The notes beneath the pieces are model-generated. The model was not told the DNA's origin. It saw only the letters and a program-made list of their open reading frames with translations, and made no database searches. DNA of 64,000 nt from Aureispira anguillae (GTDB taxonomy: Bacteria > Bacteroidota > Bacteroidia > Chitinophagales > Saprospiraceae), in NCBI RefSeq assembly GCF_026000115.1, contig NZ_AP026867.1, forward strand, positions 4,149,716 to 4,213,715, given 5' to 3'. Position numbers and translations under genes: made by a program. Below are positions 4,660 to 41,362 of this stretch, one piece after another (the first letter of the stretch is position 1; each line of letters starts with the position of its first letter).

Positions 4660-6048
4660 TTAATTTAGGTATAAATCTGCCGCCGTATACCTCGTTGAGG
4701 TATGGTTAATAATTTCGGTAACAGCATTGTCAAAATCATTGGCTCCTTTCAAATAAGTATAACCACTAACCTCCTTATTAACAGATGCTTGAATTATTGT
4801 TTTTAAACCATTATACTGTGTCTGCATTTTGTTAGGTTCAAATGTCGTATTAATAAAATCCTGTATATAAGCATTGTATTGAGCCCGATAACTAGGTATA
4901 TTAGCAATATAAGCGATTAATGGCCAATCTTTTTCAACTACGTCGTCTAGCTCAAAAGATAGTGATCCTCCCATCTTTCCATCTTGAAAAGCTTCATTGT
5001 TATCCCATGGTATCCAACTTATTAAGTTGGTAGAAGGGTTGTTGTAGAGATAATAATTGTGCGTCATTCGTCCATAAGTATCCCAATTTTGAATCGTTGT
5101 ATTCACTGCCAAATATTTTAAAAACAAGTCTACATCAAAAACTGCTTCTAAATTTGCTTTATACAAACTAGTATCTGCTGTCCTAGAGGGGGCATGCAAA
5201 GCATCATAAACAGCTTGAATATCAGACCAATCACTATTCGTCTCGTTGGTTTTCTTTTCAAAATCGGCTAGACTAAAATTAGAAGTAGACCATGCTGCTC
5301 CATTGCCATCAGGTTTGTAACAATTTCCTGTATTATTCCCAAATTGCTTTTCAAGCATGGTATCAAATACCACTTCTACAAAGGTATACAAACCAAAATA
5401 AACAGGTCCTTCTCCATAATCAATATAAAGTTGATAATAAGCCGTTTGAGGGGCTGGAACGCCAAATTCTCGAAATAAATCTGTAGCCACTTTCTCCCTC
5501 ATAAAAGAGGGATCATCATAATTACTGCTCAAAGACAAATCCGTAAATCCATAAAAGGTTTGCCCTGTTATTTCAGGAAATTCATCTTCGTAATAATCAA
5601 ACTTAACTCGAAAAGGAAGTTTTCCGTTTCCTGACTGATAACCAGAGCTCAAGCTAGAGTTTCCTTTATAACGAATCCCTACATTGTACCATTCCTTTCC
5701 GTTAAAAAACCAACTACAAGGAACATAAATAGGTGTCTCTTCCGAAAAACCGCCCCCTCCTCCTGGTCCACCAGCAGGTCTGCCGCCTCCTGATGTTCCA
5801 CTGCCATAAATATCATTTATATTAGAAGATAAAATTGCCCAATATCTAGCATCAATAACAAGATCTACCCGATTGACTTTTGTTTGGTCAAATACAACGT
5901 CATAATCGGGTATTGCTAAAGCCGAATGAGAAGCTGAAGACCAATCGCTTAAACCTGTTCCTGCTGCAACAAAAGTTTCCTTATAACAAGAAGAAAAAAC
6001 AATGCTTAAACCTACGATAATAACAAACGCTTGAAATTTATTTTTCAT
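4660..6048 (-). CDS. CotH kinase family lipoprotein
   Basis: This 462-residue protein has a lipoprotein signal (VFSSC lipobox near residues 18-22), so it is probably membrane-anchored outside the cytoplasm. The body matches the CotH family, atypical protein kinases first known from spore-coat assembly. Visible signs are VGIRYKGNSS, KLPFRVKFD, a FMREKVATDLFREFG helix, HNYYLYNN and the WIPWDNNEAF segment that carries likely metal-binding acidic residues. A glycine-rich stretch (about residues 84-98) lies in the N-terminal part. Its start overlaps the end of the upstream DUF2490 gene by 11 bp, so the two are probably co-translated. Many Bacteroidota carry CotH proteins of unknown substrate; kinase activity here is inferred from family only. 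Confidence 0.85.
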   Translation of the reverse strand: MKNKFQAFVIIVGLSIVFSSCYKETFVAAGTGLSDWSSASHSALAIPDYDVVFDQTKVNRVDLVIDARYWAILSSNINDIYGSGTSGGGRPAGGPGGGGGFSEETPIYVPCSWFFNGKEWYNVGIRYKGNSSLSSGYQSGNGKLPFRVKFDYYEDEFPEITGQTFYGFTDLSLSSNYDDPSFMREKVATDLFREFGVPAPQTAYYQLYIDYGEGPVYFGLYTFVEVVFDTMLEKQFGNNTGNCYKPDGNGAAWSTSNFSLADFEKKTNETNSDWSDIQAVYDALHAPSRTADTSLYKANLEAVFDVDLFLKYLAVNTTIQNWDTYGRMTHNYYLYNNPSTNLISWIPWDNNEAFQDGKMGGSLSFELDDVVEKDWPLIAYIANIPSYRAQYNAYIQDFINTTFEPNKMQTQYNGLKTIIQASVNKEVSGYTYLKGANDFDNAVTEIINHTSTRYTAADLYLN

Positions 6049-6787
6049 ACTTGTCCTTTTTTTTGATTTTGATGGTATAAATATAACCTAGTCCTAGAAC
6101 TCCTGTTGTTTTAGGGTAATTCACAAAAAGCTCTTGTTCAACCCTATAAAACAGCTTCACCTTTCCAAACTTCTTAAAATCATAGGCTAAAGAAGCGGTA
6201 AATCTCAATTTATCAAATACAGGCAACTGATACTTTTCCAATTGATTAAATAATTCTACAGAGAGTTGGGGTTCCAATGGAATCTTTTTGATATTATAAC
6301 CAACTCCTGCTCGCAAACGAAAACGGTGCTTAAGGTAATCCCCCTCTGTTGTTGTTTTTCCTATTTCATCTCTAAATTGATATCGCAATCGATATTTAAA
6401 TGATAGTCTGCTGATTTTGTGTCGATAAGCAACATCAAAATGAAGACGATAATGAGGGGAATATGTTCCTTCGCCTTCTTCCATTTGAGTAAATCTAAAT
6501 CCAGCTCCCAACTGCAAAAATTTAATAGGAGCATACTTTACATCTAAATTTGTAAAATACTGATCTAGCTCAGAAATATTCTTTTTAAATCGAAACTCTT
6601 CCTTTAACTCAATTGTCCACTTTTTGTGTATTTTAAGACGTATTCCTGCAAAAAACCACCCTTCAAGATCAGATGTTACTACACTCGTTCCCAATGTTTG
6701 AGCCTTGCTTTCTGGATAACCAAATACCATAAACAATAATAGGAACAGAAAAGTACTGGGGCGCACTTGGTTCTCTAATTTTTTCAT
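6038..6787 (-). CDS. DUF2490 family predicted outer-membrane beta-barrel protein
   Basis: The start at 6787 (MKKLENQ) is chosen because it is an ATG directly before a signal peptide that ends near ESKAQ; the longer frame to 6835 begins only with TTG. The mature part has alternating strands with many aromatic and basic residues (WTIELKEEFRFKK, LGAGFRFTQ, FKYRLRYQFRDEIG), typical of DUF2490 proteins, which are predicted small outer-membrane barrels of unknown function. It overlaps the CotH gene and shares its transcription direction. The two products may work together at the cell envelope, which is inference from gene order. Confidence 0.8.
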   Translation of the reverse strand: MKKLENQVRPSTFLFLLLFMVFGYPESKAQTLGTSVVTSDLEGWFFAGIRLKIHKKWTIELKEEFRFKKNISELDQYFTNLDVKYAPIKFLQLGAGFRFTQMEEGEGTYSPHYRLHFDVAYRHKISRLSFKYRLRYQFRDEIGKTTTEGDYLKHRFRLRAGVGYNIKKIPLEPQLSVELFNQLEKYQLPVFDKLRFTASLAYDFKKFGKVKLFYRVEQELFVNYPKTTGVLGLGYIYTIKIKKKDKYEK

Positions 6788-22041: not shown

Positions 22042-22085
22042 CAACGCTCTTTGAATTGGTTATTTCATCCATCAAAAGAGCGTTG
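22042..22085. repeat. Inverted repeat before the small membrane protein gene
   Basis: Perfect 11-bp arms, caacgctcttt (22042-22052) and aaagagcgttg (22075-22085), are 22 bp apart and lie about 20-60 bp before the ATG at 22105. It may act as an operator or leader hairpin, and it argues that the open frame upstream of that ATG is not translated. Confidence 0.55.
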
Positions 22086-22104
22086 TTACAAAAAACAAAT
22101 AACA

Positions 22105-22572
22105 ATGTTGTTGTACATAATGTTAGGTTTTATCGGAATTTTAATCCTTGTTGCCATTGCAGGAAACAAAGATGCTAAAAATAAAGCATTAGATGCAGCT
22201 GCTCGTATAAAAACAATGGAACTTAAATATGAAGATTATATAGAAAAAAATATCCACGATCATCTCTTAGAAAAAAATGGGCTTCAAGTAGATCCTGAAA
22301 GACTCGCCCAAGACACCCTAAAACTCATTGCTCCAGATTTGAATGGTCTTATTACCCTAATTAATTCAACGACTTATTCTAATGTAGAAATAAATTATAC
22401 CGCTACTTATTTCCCCAATATTGTCAGCTTGACAGAAGATTATTTTCGCCAAAGCCAGAAAAATAAATCCAAACGACTTACAGAAATAGAAGAAGAGACA
22501 TTTAGAACGAATGCCTTAGATGCTATTCTAGCGGATATCCGCCGCCGATTGTTAAACATTGACGATTTGTAA
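22105..22572 (+). CDS. Small membrane-anchored hypothetical protein
   Basis: The start is taken at the ATG at 22105 (MLLYIMLGFIG); the longer frame begins with TTG and crosses an inverted repeat. The 155-residue product has one N-terminal membrane helix (about residues 1-20) and then a mostly charged, helical domain (IKTMELKYEDYIEKNIHDH, RLTEIEEETFRTNALDAIL). No family is recognised. It lies immediately before the gap that contains the seven-copy repeat array. Confidence 0.6.
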   Translation: MLLYIMLGFIGILILVAIAGNKDAKNKALDAAARIKTMELKYEDYIEKNIHDHLLEKNGLQVDPERLAQDTLKLIAPDLNGLITLINSTTYSNVEINYTATYFPNIVSLTEDYFRQSQKNKSKRLTEIEEETFRTNALDAILADIRRRLLNIDDL

Positions 22573-22893
22573 TCTCTCCGCTCCTTTTAGCAAACATTCT
22601 CTCTCTAACGATTAGTTATGTTGCTAGTTAGCCTTGTATCTATTGCTTTTAGTTCGTGCACTAGCGTTTATGTGCTCACAAAGCAAACGGTTTTATATTG
22701 TTGCCTCACACTTTGTACGACTATATTTCCATTATAAAATTCTTGTTTTTCTTTCCATTTTAGATATTCTATTCCATTTTGGAACAAAATACAAAAAACA
22801 ATAATATATAAACAACTGGAAAACAATATTTATTTTATTGGCACCAGTTTAGCTTATACTTAAGCGTATCAACAAGTGATAATAATTATTAAA

Positions 22894-23533
22894 GATAAAT
22901 TTGGGTTTTAATTGGGGTGATTTAGGATTCACATGAATGGGAATACATGTGAATCCTTATCTTTCTCTCTTGCTAAAATGGATGCTTTAATATAACGATA
23001 AATTTGGGTTTTAATTGGGGTGATTTAGGGTTCACATGAATGGGAATACATGTGAATCCTTATCTTTTCTCTCCGCAAAACACCATAACGATAAATTTGG
23101 GTTTTAATTGGGGTGATTTAGGGTTCACATGAATGGGAATACATGTGAATCCTTATCTTTTCTCTCCGCAAAACACCATAACGATAAATTTGGGTTTTAA
23201 TTGGGGTGATTTAGGGTTCACATGAATGGGAATACATGTGAATCCTTATCTTTTCTCTCCACAAAACACCATAACGATAAATTTGGGTTTTAATTGGGGT
23301 GATTTAGGGTTCACATGAATGGGAATACATGTGAATCCTTATCTTTTCTCTCCGCAAAACACCATAACGATAAATTTGGGTTTTAATTGGGGTGATTTAG
23401 GGTTCACATGAATGGGAATACATGTGAATCCTTATCTTTTCTCTCCGCAAAACACCATAATGATAAATTTGGGTTTTAATTGGGGTGATTTAGGGTTCAC
23501 ATGAATGGGAATACATGTGAATCCTTATCTTTC
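22894..23533 (+). repeat. Seven-copy tandem repeat of about 93 bp, each with promoter-like element and hairpin
   Basis: Copies begin at 22894, 22997, 23090, 23183, 23276, 23369 and 23462; the first spacing is 103 bp and the others are exactly 93. Each copy has TAAATTTG, then a conserved stretch, then the inverted repeat TTCACATG-N10-CATGTGAA, then CCTTATCTTT, a U-rich tail. The first copy has a fully paired GGATTCACATG arm; later copies have GGGTTCACATG, which keeps the stem with one G-U pair. No open reading frame spans the array. The remaining gap at 22573-22893 is AT-rich and shows nothing I can name. Tandem small-RNA genes or a protein-binding array are both possible. Confidence 0.9.
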
Positions 23534-23544
23534 TAGCAATTTTC

Positions 23545-23588
23545 AAAAAAAAAACATCTTTTACTGTGGGAGTAAAAGATGTTTTTTT
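23545..23588. terminator. Strong bidirectional terminator
   Basis: Perfect 14-bp arms (23552-23565 and 23571-23584) around GTGGG, flanked by an A run on the left and a T run on the right, so it can terminate both the cyclophilin gene and anything transcribed through the repeat array. Confidence 0.85.
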
Positions 23589-23610
23589 AATTATAGCCAC
23601 TCGGAAATAA

Positions 23611-24291
23611 TTAGCCTTTTTTAAGCTTCATTTTTAGGATCACATCCTTAATAGGTCTGCTATTTCTAACTTGCACTACAGCTATTTTATCTATAACGTC
23701 TAAGCCCTTTATTACACGTCCAAACACGGTATAACTACCATCTAAATGAGGAGTTCCCCCTATTTCTGCATAGGCCTTTTGCTGTTCTTCGGTATATTTT
23801 ATGTTATTACGAGCCTGCATTTGTTTTAAAATAGCAGGTTTTACCTTTTGTCCTTGAACAATATAAAATTGTGAACCTGAAGATTCCTTATTAGGATTGA
23901 CAGCATCCCCCATTCGAGCAGCCGCTAAGGCACCTTTGAGATGAATGAGAGAATCAACAAATTCGGCAGGAATGGTGTAACCTGGTCCTCCATTTCCTAA
24001 CATTACATTGGGTGCAGCCCCCTTAGATTCAGGATCGCCTCCTTGAATCATAAAATTGTTAATGACTCTATGAAATAACAAACTATCATAAAATCCTTGT
24101 TTTACCAACTTCACAAAATTATCTCTATGCTTAGGAGTACTAGCATACAATTGCATTTCTACGACACCATAGGTTGTGGTCATTTCTACAATTGGAGCAT
24201 ATTCAGGTGATTTGGGATTGTAAATACTTTTAGAGCAGGCTGTCCATAGACAAGCAAAGGCAAGAAATAAAAATAAAGTTTGTTTGTTCAT
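23611..24291 (-). CDS. Cyclophilin-type peptidyl-prolyl isomerase lipoprotein
   Basis: The 226-residue protein has a lipoprotein signal (CLWTACSK) and a cyclophilin domain. Visible motifs are VEMQLYASTPKHRDNFVKL, FHRVINNFMIQGGDP and SSGSQFYIVQGQ. It should catalyse proline isomerisation in the periplasm and aid folding of exported proteins. An insertion of about 25 residues before HLDGSYTVFGRV is typical of Bacteroidota versions. It is followed by a strong terminator and lies 108 bp after the epimerase gene on the same strand. Confidence 0.93.
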   Translation of the reverse strand: MNKQTLFLFLAFACLWTACSKSIYNPKSPEYAPIVEMTTTYGVVEMQLYASTPKHRDNFVKLVKQGFYDSLLFHRVINNFMIQGGDPESKGAAPNVMLGNGGPGYTIPAEFVDSLIHLKGALAAARMGDAVNPNKESSGSQFYIVQGQKVKPAILKQMQARNNIKYTEEQQKAYAEIGGTPHLDGSYTVFGRVIKGLDVIDKIAVVQVRNSRPIKDVILKMKLKKG

Positions 24292-41155: not shown

Positions 41156-41260
41156 TTCATTCCTTCACTTTATGCTCTTTTGGGTTTCGTTTTTTAGTTG
41201 TATATTCTTTGCTTGTTTTCTCTTTGTTCTTGTTTTATTCTTTCTGCTATTTTTATTCTT

Positions 41261-41362
41261 TTATTTGCCGTGGGCGAATCTTCTTATTTGCCGTGGGCGA
41301 ATCTTCTTATTTGCCGTGGGCGAATCTTCTTATTTGCCGTGGGCGAACACTTTGGTTCGCCC
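41261..41362 (-). repeat. Four 23-bp tandem repeats with competing hairpins between rsmH and ftsL
   Basis: Units start at 41261, 41284, 41307 and 41330; the first three are identical and the last diverges in its final bases. Each carries GGGCGAA on the plus strand. A single inverted TTCGCCC (41356-41362), just after the rsmH stop, can pair with any of the four copies. In the minus-strand transcript this gives one GGGCGAA followed by four UUCGCCC segments. Confidence 0.85.

Follow-up and report, generated by a model that had tools for sequence, protein, structure and literature searches.

A tandem array of seven units lies on the 7.6-Mb chromosome of Aureispira anguillae (Saprospiraceae), within a stretch of 64,000 nucleotides that was analysed as a whole and is referred to below as the window. 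The array fills the gap between the F9 gene and a convergent cyclophilin gene, and the following features can be recognised at the locus (window coordinates):

22051..22572, + strand: left neighbour, conserved small protein F9, no Pfam match; members of the F9 family flank the array in 7 Aureispira genomes
22753..22784, + strand: a pair of enhancer-like sequences, TTCCATTTTAGA at 22753-22764 and TTCCATTTTGGAA at 22772-22784, where a sigma54 activator may bind; related palindromes or half-palindromes stand at a similar distance before many other arrays
22838..22854, + strand: sigma54-type -24/-12 element TTGGCACCAGTTTAGCT (GG-N10-GC), with a predicted start at about 22865
22867..22881, + strand: small leader hairpin UAUCA-ACAAG-UGAUA, a predicted fold; a sequence of the TATCAAAAGTGATA type occurs in most leaders
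22897..22961, + strand: unit 1, an unpaired conserved 5' part followed by a hairpin; 92.0 bits with covariance model R1, whose construction had included this unit
23000..23064, + strand: unit 2; R1, 90.5 bits
23093..23157, + strand: unit 3; R1, 90.5 bits
23186..23250, + strand: unit 4; R1, 90.5 bits
23279..23343, + strand: unit 5; R1, 90.5 bits
23372..23436, + strand: unit 6; R1, 90.5 bits
23465..23529, + strand: unit 7; R1, 90.5 bits
23548..23588, no strand assigned: perfect 18-bp inverted repeat with an A-run and a T-run, which folds
23611..24291, - strand: right neighbour, cyclophilin-type peptidyl-prolyl isomerase (PPIase), convergent; PF00160, E 2.1e-41

A previous reading of this DNA, made from the sequence only, had counted seven tandem copies spaced by 103 and then by 93 bp. 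The unit starts, marked by AAATTTGGG, bear this out: they fall at 22897, 23000, 23093, 23186, 23279, 23372 and 23465, i.e., one spacing of 103 followed by five of 93, and positions 22992-23532 form a tandem repeat that is 99% matched. The 26-nt sequence TTCACATGAATGGGAATACATGTGAA occurs seven times without mismatch in the window, compared with no occurrence at up to three mismatches in 100 dinucleotide shuffles. The exact TAnnTTTG element (TAAATTTG) that had been noted in each copy is found in 7/7 units, which also have a U-rich tail (TTATCTTT), and the statement that no protein is encoded agrees with the lack of any ORF of at least 80 aa overlapping 22573-23610. Another, separate repeat of the window, at 41257-41347, consists of a 23-bp unit (TCTTCTTATTTGCCGTGGGCGAA) in four tandem copies.

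All units are built on one plan: TAAATTTGGGTTTTAATTGGGGTGATTTAGG, an 11-pair stem, an A.A mismatch, two further pairs, a GGGA loop and then a G-poor linker (131 G among 1792 linker bases in the arrays of the similarity comparison). Seven single cores are more stable than their own shuffles (z -2.1 to -4.2). GGATTC in copy 1 becomes GGGTTC in copies 2-7 with pairing retained via G-U, a change that the sequence-only reading had already taken to suggest selection on RNA structure; covariation and the exchange of GGGA for UUCG loops now reinforce that view. In a plain MAFFT alignment of 24 units, 99.7% of the stem cells are paired, 37 cells have both sides changed, and the covariation score is 0.407 compared with 0.228 +- 0.016 in shuffled alignments (0/500 as high). 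Two of the five covariation measures do not exceed the shuffles in this alignment, namely pairs changed on both sides (6 vs 4.8, 103/500) and further pair types (11 vs 12.0, 489/500). With 47 distinct rows, other genera included, in an alignment that was fitted to the structure, 98.7% of the cells are paired, 100 are changed on both sides, double changes affect 12 of the 13 pairs, and the score rises to 0.582 vs 0.280 +- 0.015 (0/500 as high); four measures were reached in 0/500 shuffles and further pair types in 1/500. Judged by this strong covariation, the unit hairpin is under selection as RNA.

The hairpin loop is GGGA in most units; G002 additionally has UUCG or TTAG, and the relatives labelled g79 have TATG or AACA. 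In alignment A1 (24 internal units, hand-picked) the 5' stretch and the GGGA loop are invariant across all rows. The unpaired 5' part TTTAATTGGGGTGA is nearly constant, and invariant in the 24 rows of alignment A3, which include two genera beyond Aureispira; exceptions are unit 1 of L069, L064, and units of G003, G008 and G179 with an extra internal hairpin or an enlarged loop. Alignment A2 holds 29 of the 43 distinct cores, leaving out eight with an inserted hairpin and six others, while A5 omits L072, L075, L104, L105 and the window itself, the units of which are present in L035.

Several units of G003, G008 and G179 contain an insertion of a roughly 24-nt palindrome, ACTGCGTGAGTGCGCAAGCGCAG, always at the same position within the conserved 5' stretch (L062:5116-5138, L063:5308-5330, L064:5237-5259, L066:5230-5252, L067:5282-5304 and others). 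Some units show an enlarged loop with an extra sub-hairpin, CCTGC...GCGG (L062:5099-5220; L034 at about 5000-5300, minus strand), and the own-genome array at locus B (described below) ends in a degenerate copy with a similar enlarged loop. Two additional pairings were considered and dropped. An outer helix between the variable linker and the conserved 5' stretch, suggested by single folds, was mostly no better than with dinucleotide-shuffled linkers (<=0.05 in 2/16 units), and pairing of the 5' stretch with the 3' end of 16S rRNA was judged weak.

Beyond what the sequence-only reading had described, namely the window array without the leader element at 22838-22854 and the probable terminator at 23548-23588, the same genome contains five further arrays, so that six arrays comprise 33 units (5, 5, 3, 5, 7 and 8). 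DNA matches were obtained in 8 of 60 relatives (own genome counted), all belonging to this genus and representing eight of its nine genomes; the ninth, G007, gave no DNA match. With R1, matches at E <= 0.001 were obtained in 18 of the 398 family genomes, and the convincing matches outside the genus are the four g79 genomes (5.0e-8 to 1.3e-7), G106 (9.8e-13) and G179, whose contig carries a provirus-like element. Model R2, built with g79 units and hence matching g79 by construction, gave 13 matched genomes among 396 of the order and no convincing new one; the family and order sets overlap, and stricter filters were used. Weak distant matches in G071, G138, G157, G348, G434 and G598 were unconvincing on inspection by eye. 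Viral contigs (exact 20-mer), phages and plasmids had no match to the unit. When the window was compared with Rfam 15, no family reached the gathering threshold; the lowest-E match covering whole units was Bacteroides-1 (RF01694; 23.4 bits vs a threshold of 43, E 0.18). The array RNA probably constitutes a new RNA family.

The arrays occupy three kinds of loci, with 1 to 11 units each. Locus A, that of the window, has the order glpK, F9, array, PPIase and can be identified in eight Aureispira genomes. Seven of these have F9 on the left, and four have PPIase on the right, in G003 after two intervening genes; the remainder are cut by a contig edge except for G002, whose right side carries different genes. 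At locus B, present in four genomes of the genus, the array lies between a DUF3078 gene and an amidohydrolase gene. The genomes G003 and G008 are nearly identical. Locus C belongs to a provirus-like element that occurs repeatedly and encodes a D12 methylase, a topoisomerase, an LPD1 protein, an endolysin, a GIY-YIG protein and a P-loop ATPase, in which the array is placed between the LPD1 gene and variable cargo. The element keeps a fixed gene order in L031, L032 and L033 (own genome), L062-L066 (G003) and L073-L075 (G008). The segment from the RNA array to the F24/F1/F2 genes downstream varies among almost all copies, with 0 to 4 ORFs that are often oppositely oriented, and looks like a cargo slot. 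L030 contains a decayed remnant at about 5200-6170, where a 121-aa LPD1 fragment lies beside an array with leader and no other element gene was recognised nearby. Scattering of the unit at unrelated places, named beforehand as an observation that would refute the reading as transcribed cassettes, is seen only in part. Further copies of the unit do exist, but they form arrays headed by a leader. Two of these arrays occupy loci that are conserved between species, and the others belong to copies of a single provirus-like element or to its remnant.

Within one array, internal units are on average 94.8% alike (113 pairs, range 76-100%), a similarity that supports the recent expansion proposed earlier. 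Units of loci A and C are 87% (G000) and 91% (G003) alike in the same genome, whereas between G000 and G003 the figures are 76% (A-A) and 81% (C-C). Leaders behave in the opposite manner, with 80% for A-A (one pair) and 85% for C-C but 71% and 73% for A-C in the same genome. Units are therefore homogenised within a genome between the host locus and the element, while leaders follow the locus. Locus B stands outside this homogenisation (A-B 76% and 79%, B-C 76%). As judged from these similarities, the units are kept uniform by concerted evolution and shared with the provirus-like elements.

Some of these properties, i.e., a palindromic unit, the variation in copy number, several loci per genome and the presence beside variable cargo in provirus-like elements, would also suit an element that acts as DNA, either a mobile palindromic repeat of the REP/BIME type or a protein-binding array such as a partition site or recombination hot spot. 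We consider this very improbable. Exchange between GNRA and UUCG loops, G-U pairs and compensatory changes fit RNA, the arrays remain at conserved loci with a promoter-like leader and terminators, and the leaders evolve by locus, not with the units. REP/BIME repeats are scattered, lack a promoter of their own and have a cognate RAYT transposase. What is observed in Aureispira is a leader before the arrays and conservation of their loci.

A leader with a GG-N10-GC element precedes the first unit of nearly every array. In the own genome the element is found with correct spacing before 6/6 arrays, reads TTGGCA(C/T)-N4-TT(G/A)GC(A/T) and begins about 62 nt before TTTGGG. The corresponding pattern has 10 matches in this genome, six at the arrays and four inside ORFs of at least 165 codons, and the reversed-pattern control has none; because the pattern was derived from the array leaders themselves, the useful part of this count is how few other matches there are. 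In other genomes, TTGGCA is replaced by GTGGCA (L067, L068, L071), the -12 GC is altered (L061, L068, L070), or the element lies about 140 nt upstream (L069). A first sigma54 pattern with one base too many gave three matches (control 1), none at arrays, and an enhancer-site pattern was badly designed and matched only the window. Sigma54 promoters with typical -24/-12 elements are described for F. psychrophilum (PMC9723704). The own genome encodes rpoN and five strong activator genes (E below 1e-65), and palindromes of type TTCCATTTTGGAA or TTCTATTTTCAAAATAGAA are found about 120-165 nt before many arrays, a position where activator sites would be expected.

The sequence-only reading had instead made each unit a small gene with its own promoter (TAAATTTG), hairpin and terminator. 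The sigmaA -33 element is TTG or TTTG at a spacing of 17-23 nt. The -7 box of F. psychrophilum sigmaA is TAnnTTTG at -12 to -5 (PMC9723704). Among the 81 Aureispira units with an exact TTTGGGTTTTAATT, TAnnTTTG is present in 77, which favours separate genes, but a TTG 17-23 nt upstream in 0/81; in addition, the -7 box is broken in four units of G002 and in the G106 unit, and a leader element precedes each of the six own-genome arrays. The hairpin and U-rich tail of that proposal hold, while a promoter in each unit is not supported. As regards its terminators, T content after the hairpin averages 7.3/10 in last units (15 distinct rows) vs 4.5 in internal ones (50 rows, with the L065 row labelled internal being really a last unit with 9 T). 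Exceptions among the last units are L034 unit 8 (followed by a degenerate unit), L072 (at a contig end), L070 unit 1, L067 unit 11 and unit 7 of the window, whose own terminator candidate follows at 23548-23588. A strict consensus terminator scan of the window listed nothing at the unit hairpins, which its loop limit of 8 excluded since the A.A mismatch makes each a 10-nt loop, nor at 23548-23588. We take the latter inverted repeat as a probable terminator, serving the convergent PPIase gene as well as the array transcript. The tails of internal units are less U-rich in most other arrays, yet in the window they are fairly U-rich (7/10 T), and partial termination at each window unit is therefore possible. 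With a sigma54-type element before the first unit and U-tracts concentrated at last units, the array is probably one transcript, and we hold separate genes within it to be improbable.

Where the unit is single, the idea of a promoter of its own fares better. In G106, one unit with a sigma54-like leader lies between the DUF3078 and amidohydrolase genes (locus B). In the four g79 genomes, locus B has one unit 28 nt past the DUF3078 stop codon, with another gene downstream, and this unit combines the full promoter TTTG-N20-TATATTTG with a terminator in 4/4. The DUF3078 protein of the further genera is 53-60% identical to that of G000, and the amidohydrolase was found in G106 only. Judged by these elements, the g79 unit (in L100 at 5641-5703, minus strand) looks like an ordinary sRNA gene that stands alone, encodes about 50 nt and carries a sigmaA-type promoter and a terminator of its own. 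With a start placed relative to the -7 box as in F. psychrophilum, its RNA would begin at about UUAAUUGGGGUGA. The promoter proposed for every unit thus suits these single-copy relatives, but in the Aureispira arrays its place is taken by a shared sigma54-type candidate in the leader.

The g79 genomes also provide a candidate target. At least 12 nt of the predicted sRNA 5' end are complementary to one mRNA leader in 4/4: TCACCCCAATTA stands just before the ATG in all four genomes, 13 nt including the last A in 3/4 (the 13th base of the site is changed in G181), and TACCCCAATT just after the ATG of the candidate target, both sites being kept in all four. The complement TCACCCCAATTAA has exactly one occurrence elsewhere in G287 and one in G244, where it lies 9 nt upstream of the ATG that opens a 23S_rRNA_IVP-like gene (PF05635, E 2.9e-11). 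The predicted pairing energy was reached by only 2, 2, 8 and 3 of 1000 mononucleotide-shuffled targets in the four genomes, which are related, in a test made after the site had been seen. The candidate target protein was found neither in the six Aureispira genomes searched nor in G106.

Complementary sites are generally not enriched. Outside RNA genes, the 17-nt complement with up to two mismatches has 9 vs 6 control sites in G000, 9 vs 6 in G003, 6 vs 4 in G005 and 3 vs 8 in G287. For 13 nt with up to one mismatch, the counts are 16 vs 9 (G000), 9 vs 7 (G003), 9 vs 11 (G005), 11 vs 7 (G002), 2 vs 7 (G287) and 7 vs 7 (G244). Forty of these sites were inspected (G000 16/16, G003 9/9, G002 10/11, G287 2/2, G244 3/7, G005 0/9). 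In nine of the 40, the site ends no more than 40 nt upstream of a sense ATG with at least 60 open codons, vs 8 of 38 for permuted 13-mers, i.e., there is no start-region excess. The nine are L163 and L164 (both the g79 candidate), L171, L173, L179, L187, L188, L197 and L199. In L171 the site is 15 nt before the ATG of a GNAT acetyltransferase (PF00583), and in L188 (G003) a 156-aa ORF has 12 complementary nt placed 7 nt upstream of its ATG. The G000 site variants of L171 and L179 occur in other contexts in G003.

As a sponge or scaffold, a real transcript would use its repeated hairpins and G-rich single strands to titrate an RNA-binding protein instead of pairing with mRNAs, with copy number as dose. 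Tandem near-identical units homogenised per genome, the invariance of the 5' stretch and GGGA loop in A1, and complementary sites without excess either genome-wide or at start regions would all suit such a role. The swapped loops of G002 and the g79 relatives, the resemblance of the single-copy relatives to ordinary sRNAs, and the candidate mRNA site with its 12-13 nt of complementarity in 4/4 speak against it, and on balance we find it rather unlikely.

The reading we favour is a multimerised, sigma54-controlled, trans-acting sRNA whose 5' stretch pairs with mRNA leaders. We advance it tentatively, as possible rather than probable; it had stood at an even chance and was lowered slightly because start regions were not enriched relative to permuted 13-mers. 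A hairpin inserted inside the 5' stretch of some units also counts against it, as this would break a continuous seed. Unit structure, covariation, leader, end terminators, single-copy homologues and concerted evolution are read from the DNA itself, and from them we infer transcription, sigma54 dependence, processing and antisense action of the array. The window array would be one noncoding RNA gene, whose sigma54 promoter (22838-22854), turned on by an enhancer-binding activator, would give a transcript of about 0.7 kb ending at 23548-23588. The transcript would consist of seven sRNA copies, each an unpaired 5' stretch (UUUUAAUUGGGGUGAUUU) followed by the hairpin, with unstructured G-poor linkers between them. 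Many equal sRNA units could be supplied at once in this way, whether released by cleavage within the linkers or left joined as a multivalent strand, and their 5' stretch would block translation by pairing with mRNA leaders. A wider scenario, which we regard as doubtful, is that in one marine filamentous genus a lone sRNA gene gave rise to multimer genes that are switched by sigma54, have 1 to 11 units and lie both in provirus-like elements and at fixed loci of the host, with units kept alike across both by gene conversion while promoters stay distinct. The RNA would then be dose-tunable, and the mobile element would share it with the host or use it against the host.

How does this array compare with known systems? 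In type III toxin-antitoxin systems the toxin gene lies directly downstream of the ToxI repeats. At loci A and B no such gene was found there, the neighbours being the convergent PPIase (window) and the amidohydrolase (locus B). The CcsR or cuckoo RNAs have the loop motif CCUCCUCCC, which is absent from the unit loops (GGGA, UUCG, TTAG and others). Among the open-access titles and abstract starts listed for Aureispira and for Saprospira grandis with small RNA, none mentions such an RNA, and among those listed in a wider search none describes such an array RNA.

The FopS family of Bacteroides thetaiotaomicron is a multicopy sRNA of about 65-70 nt from the same phylum that pairs with mRNA start regions; its 14 members have sigmaABfr promoters, and the proposed targets are mostly SusC-type mRNAs of glycan loci (PMC11697453). 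The proposed working, a 5' seed plus a terminator, is alike, whereas FopS members lie at separate loci and Aureispira units in tandem. An unpaired 5' stretch, presumed to act as seed, and a terminator hairpin, as in FopS/GibS, are present in the single-copy units L099-L103 and in most last units. As to sequence homology with FopS/GibS at the Rfam level, no family reached threshold in the window. In layout the array resembles CcsR1-4 of Rhodobacter, homologous tandem sRNAs on one precursor with one promoter (RpoHI/RpoHII) and a 3' terminator, co-transcribed with ccaF1 and with RNase E processing reported (PMC10253847). The Aureispira counterpart, known from sequence, has one leader promoter candidate and an end terminator but reaches 11 units instead of four. 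The Pxr sRNA of myxobacteria has a sigma54-type promoter, is single-copy in most species of its suborder and forms tandem paralogs in one genus, each with its own sigma54 promoter and diverging (PMC5568312). The likeness, by description, concerns the sigma54-type promoter and the contrast of single with tandem copies; Aureispira units, however, are homogenised and have one leader element per array. The multicopy sRNAs found in print thus sit at separate loci (FopS) or are few tandem paralogs (CcsR1-4, Pxr), whereas in Aureispira a single sigma54-type leader precedes as many as 11 near-identical units. Since neighbouring genera have single-copy homologues, the stepwise multimerisation of an sRNA can be followed here, in a case that offers a concrete 5' stretch with one candidate target and in which host and mobile element carry the same regulatory RNA.
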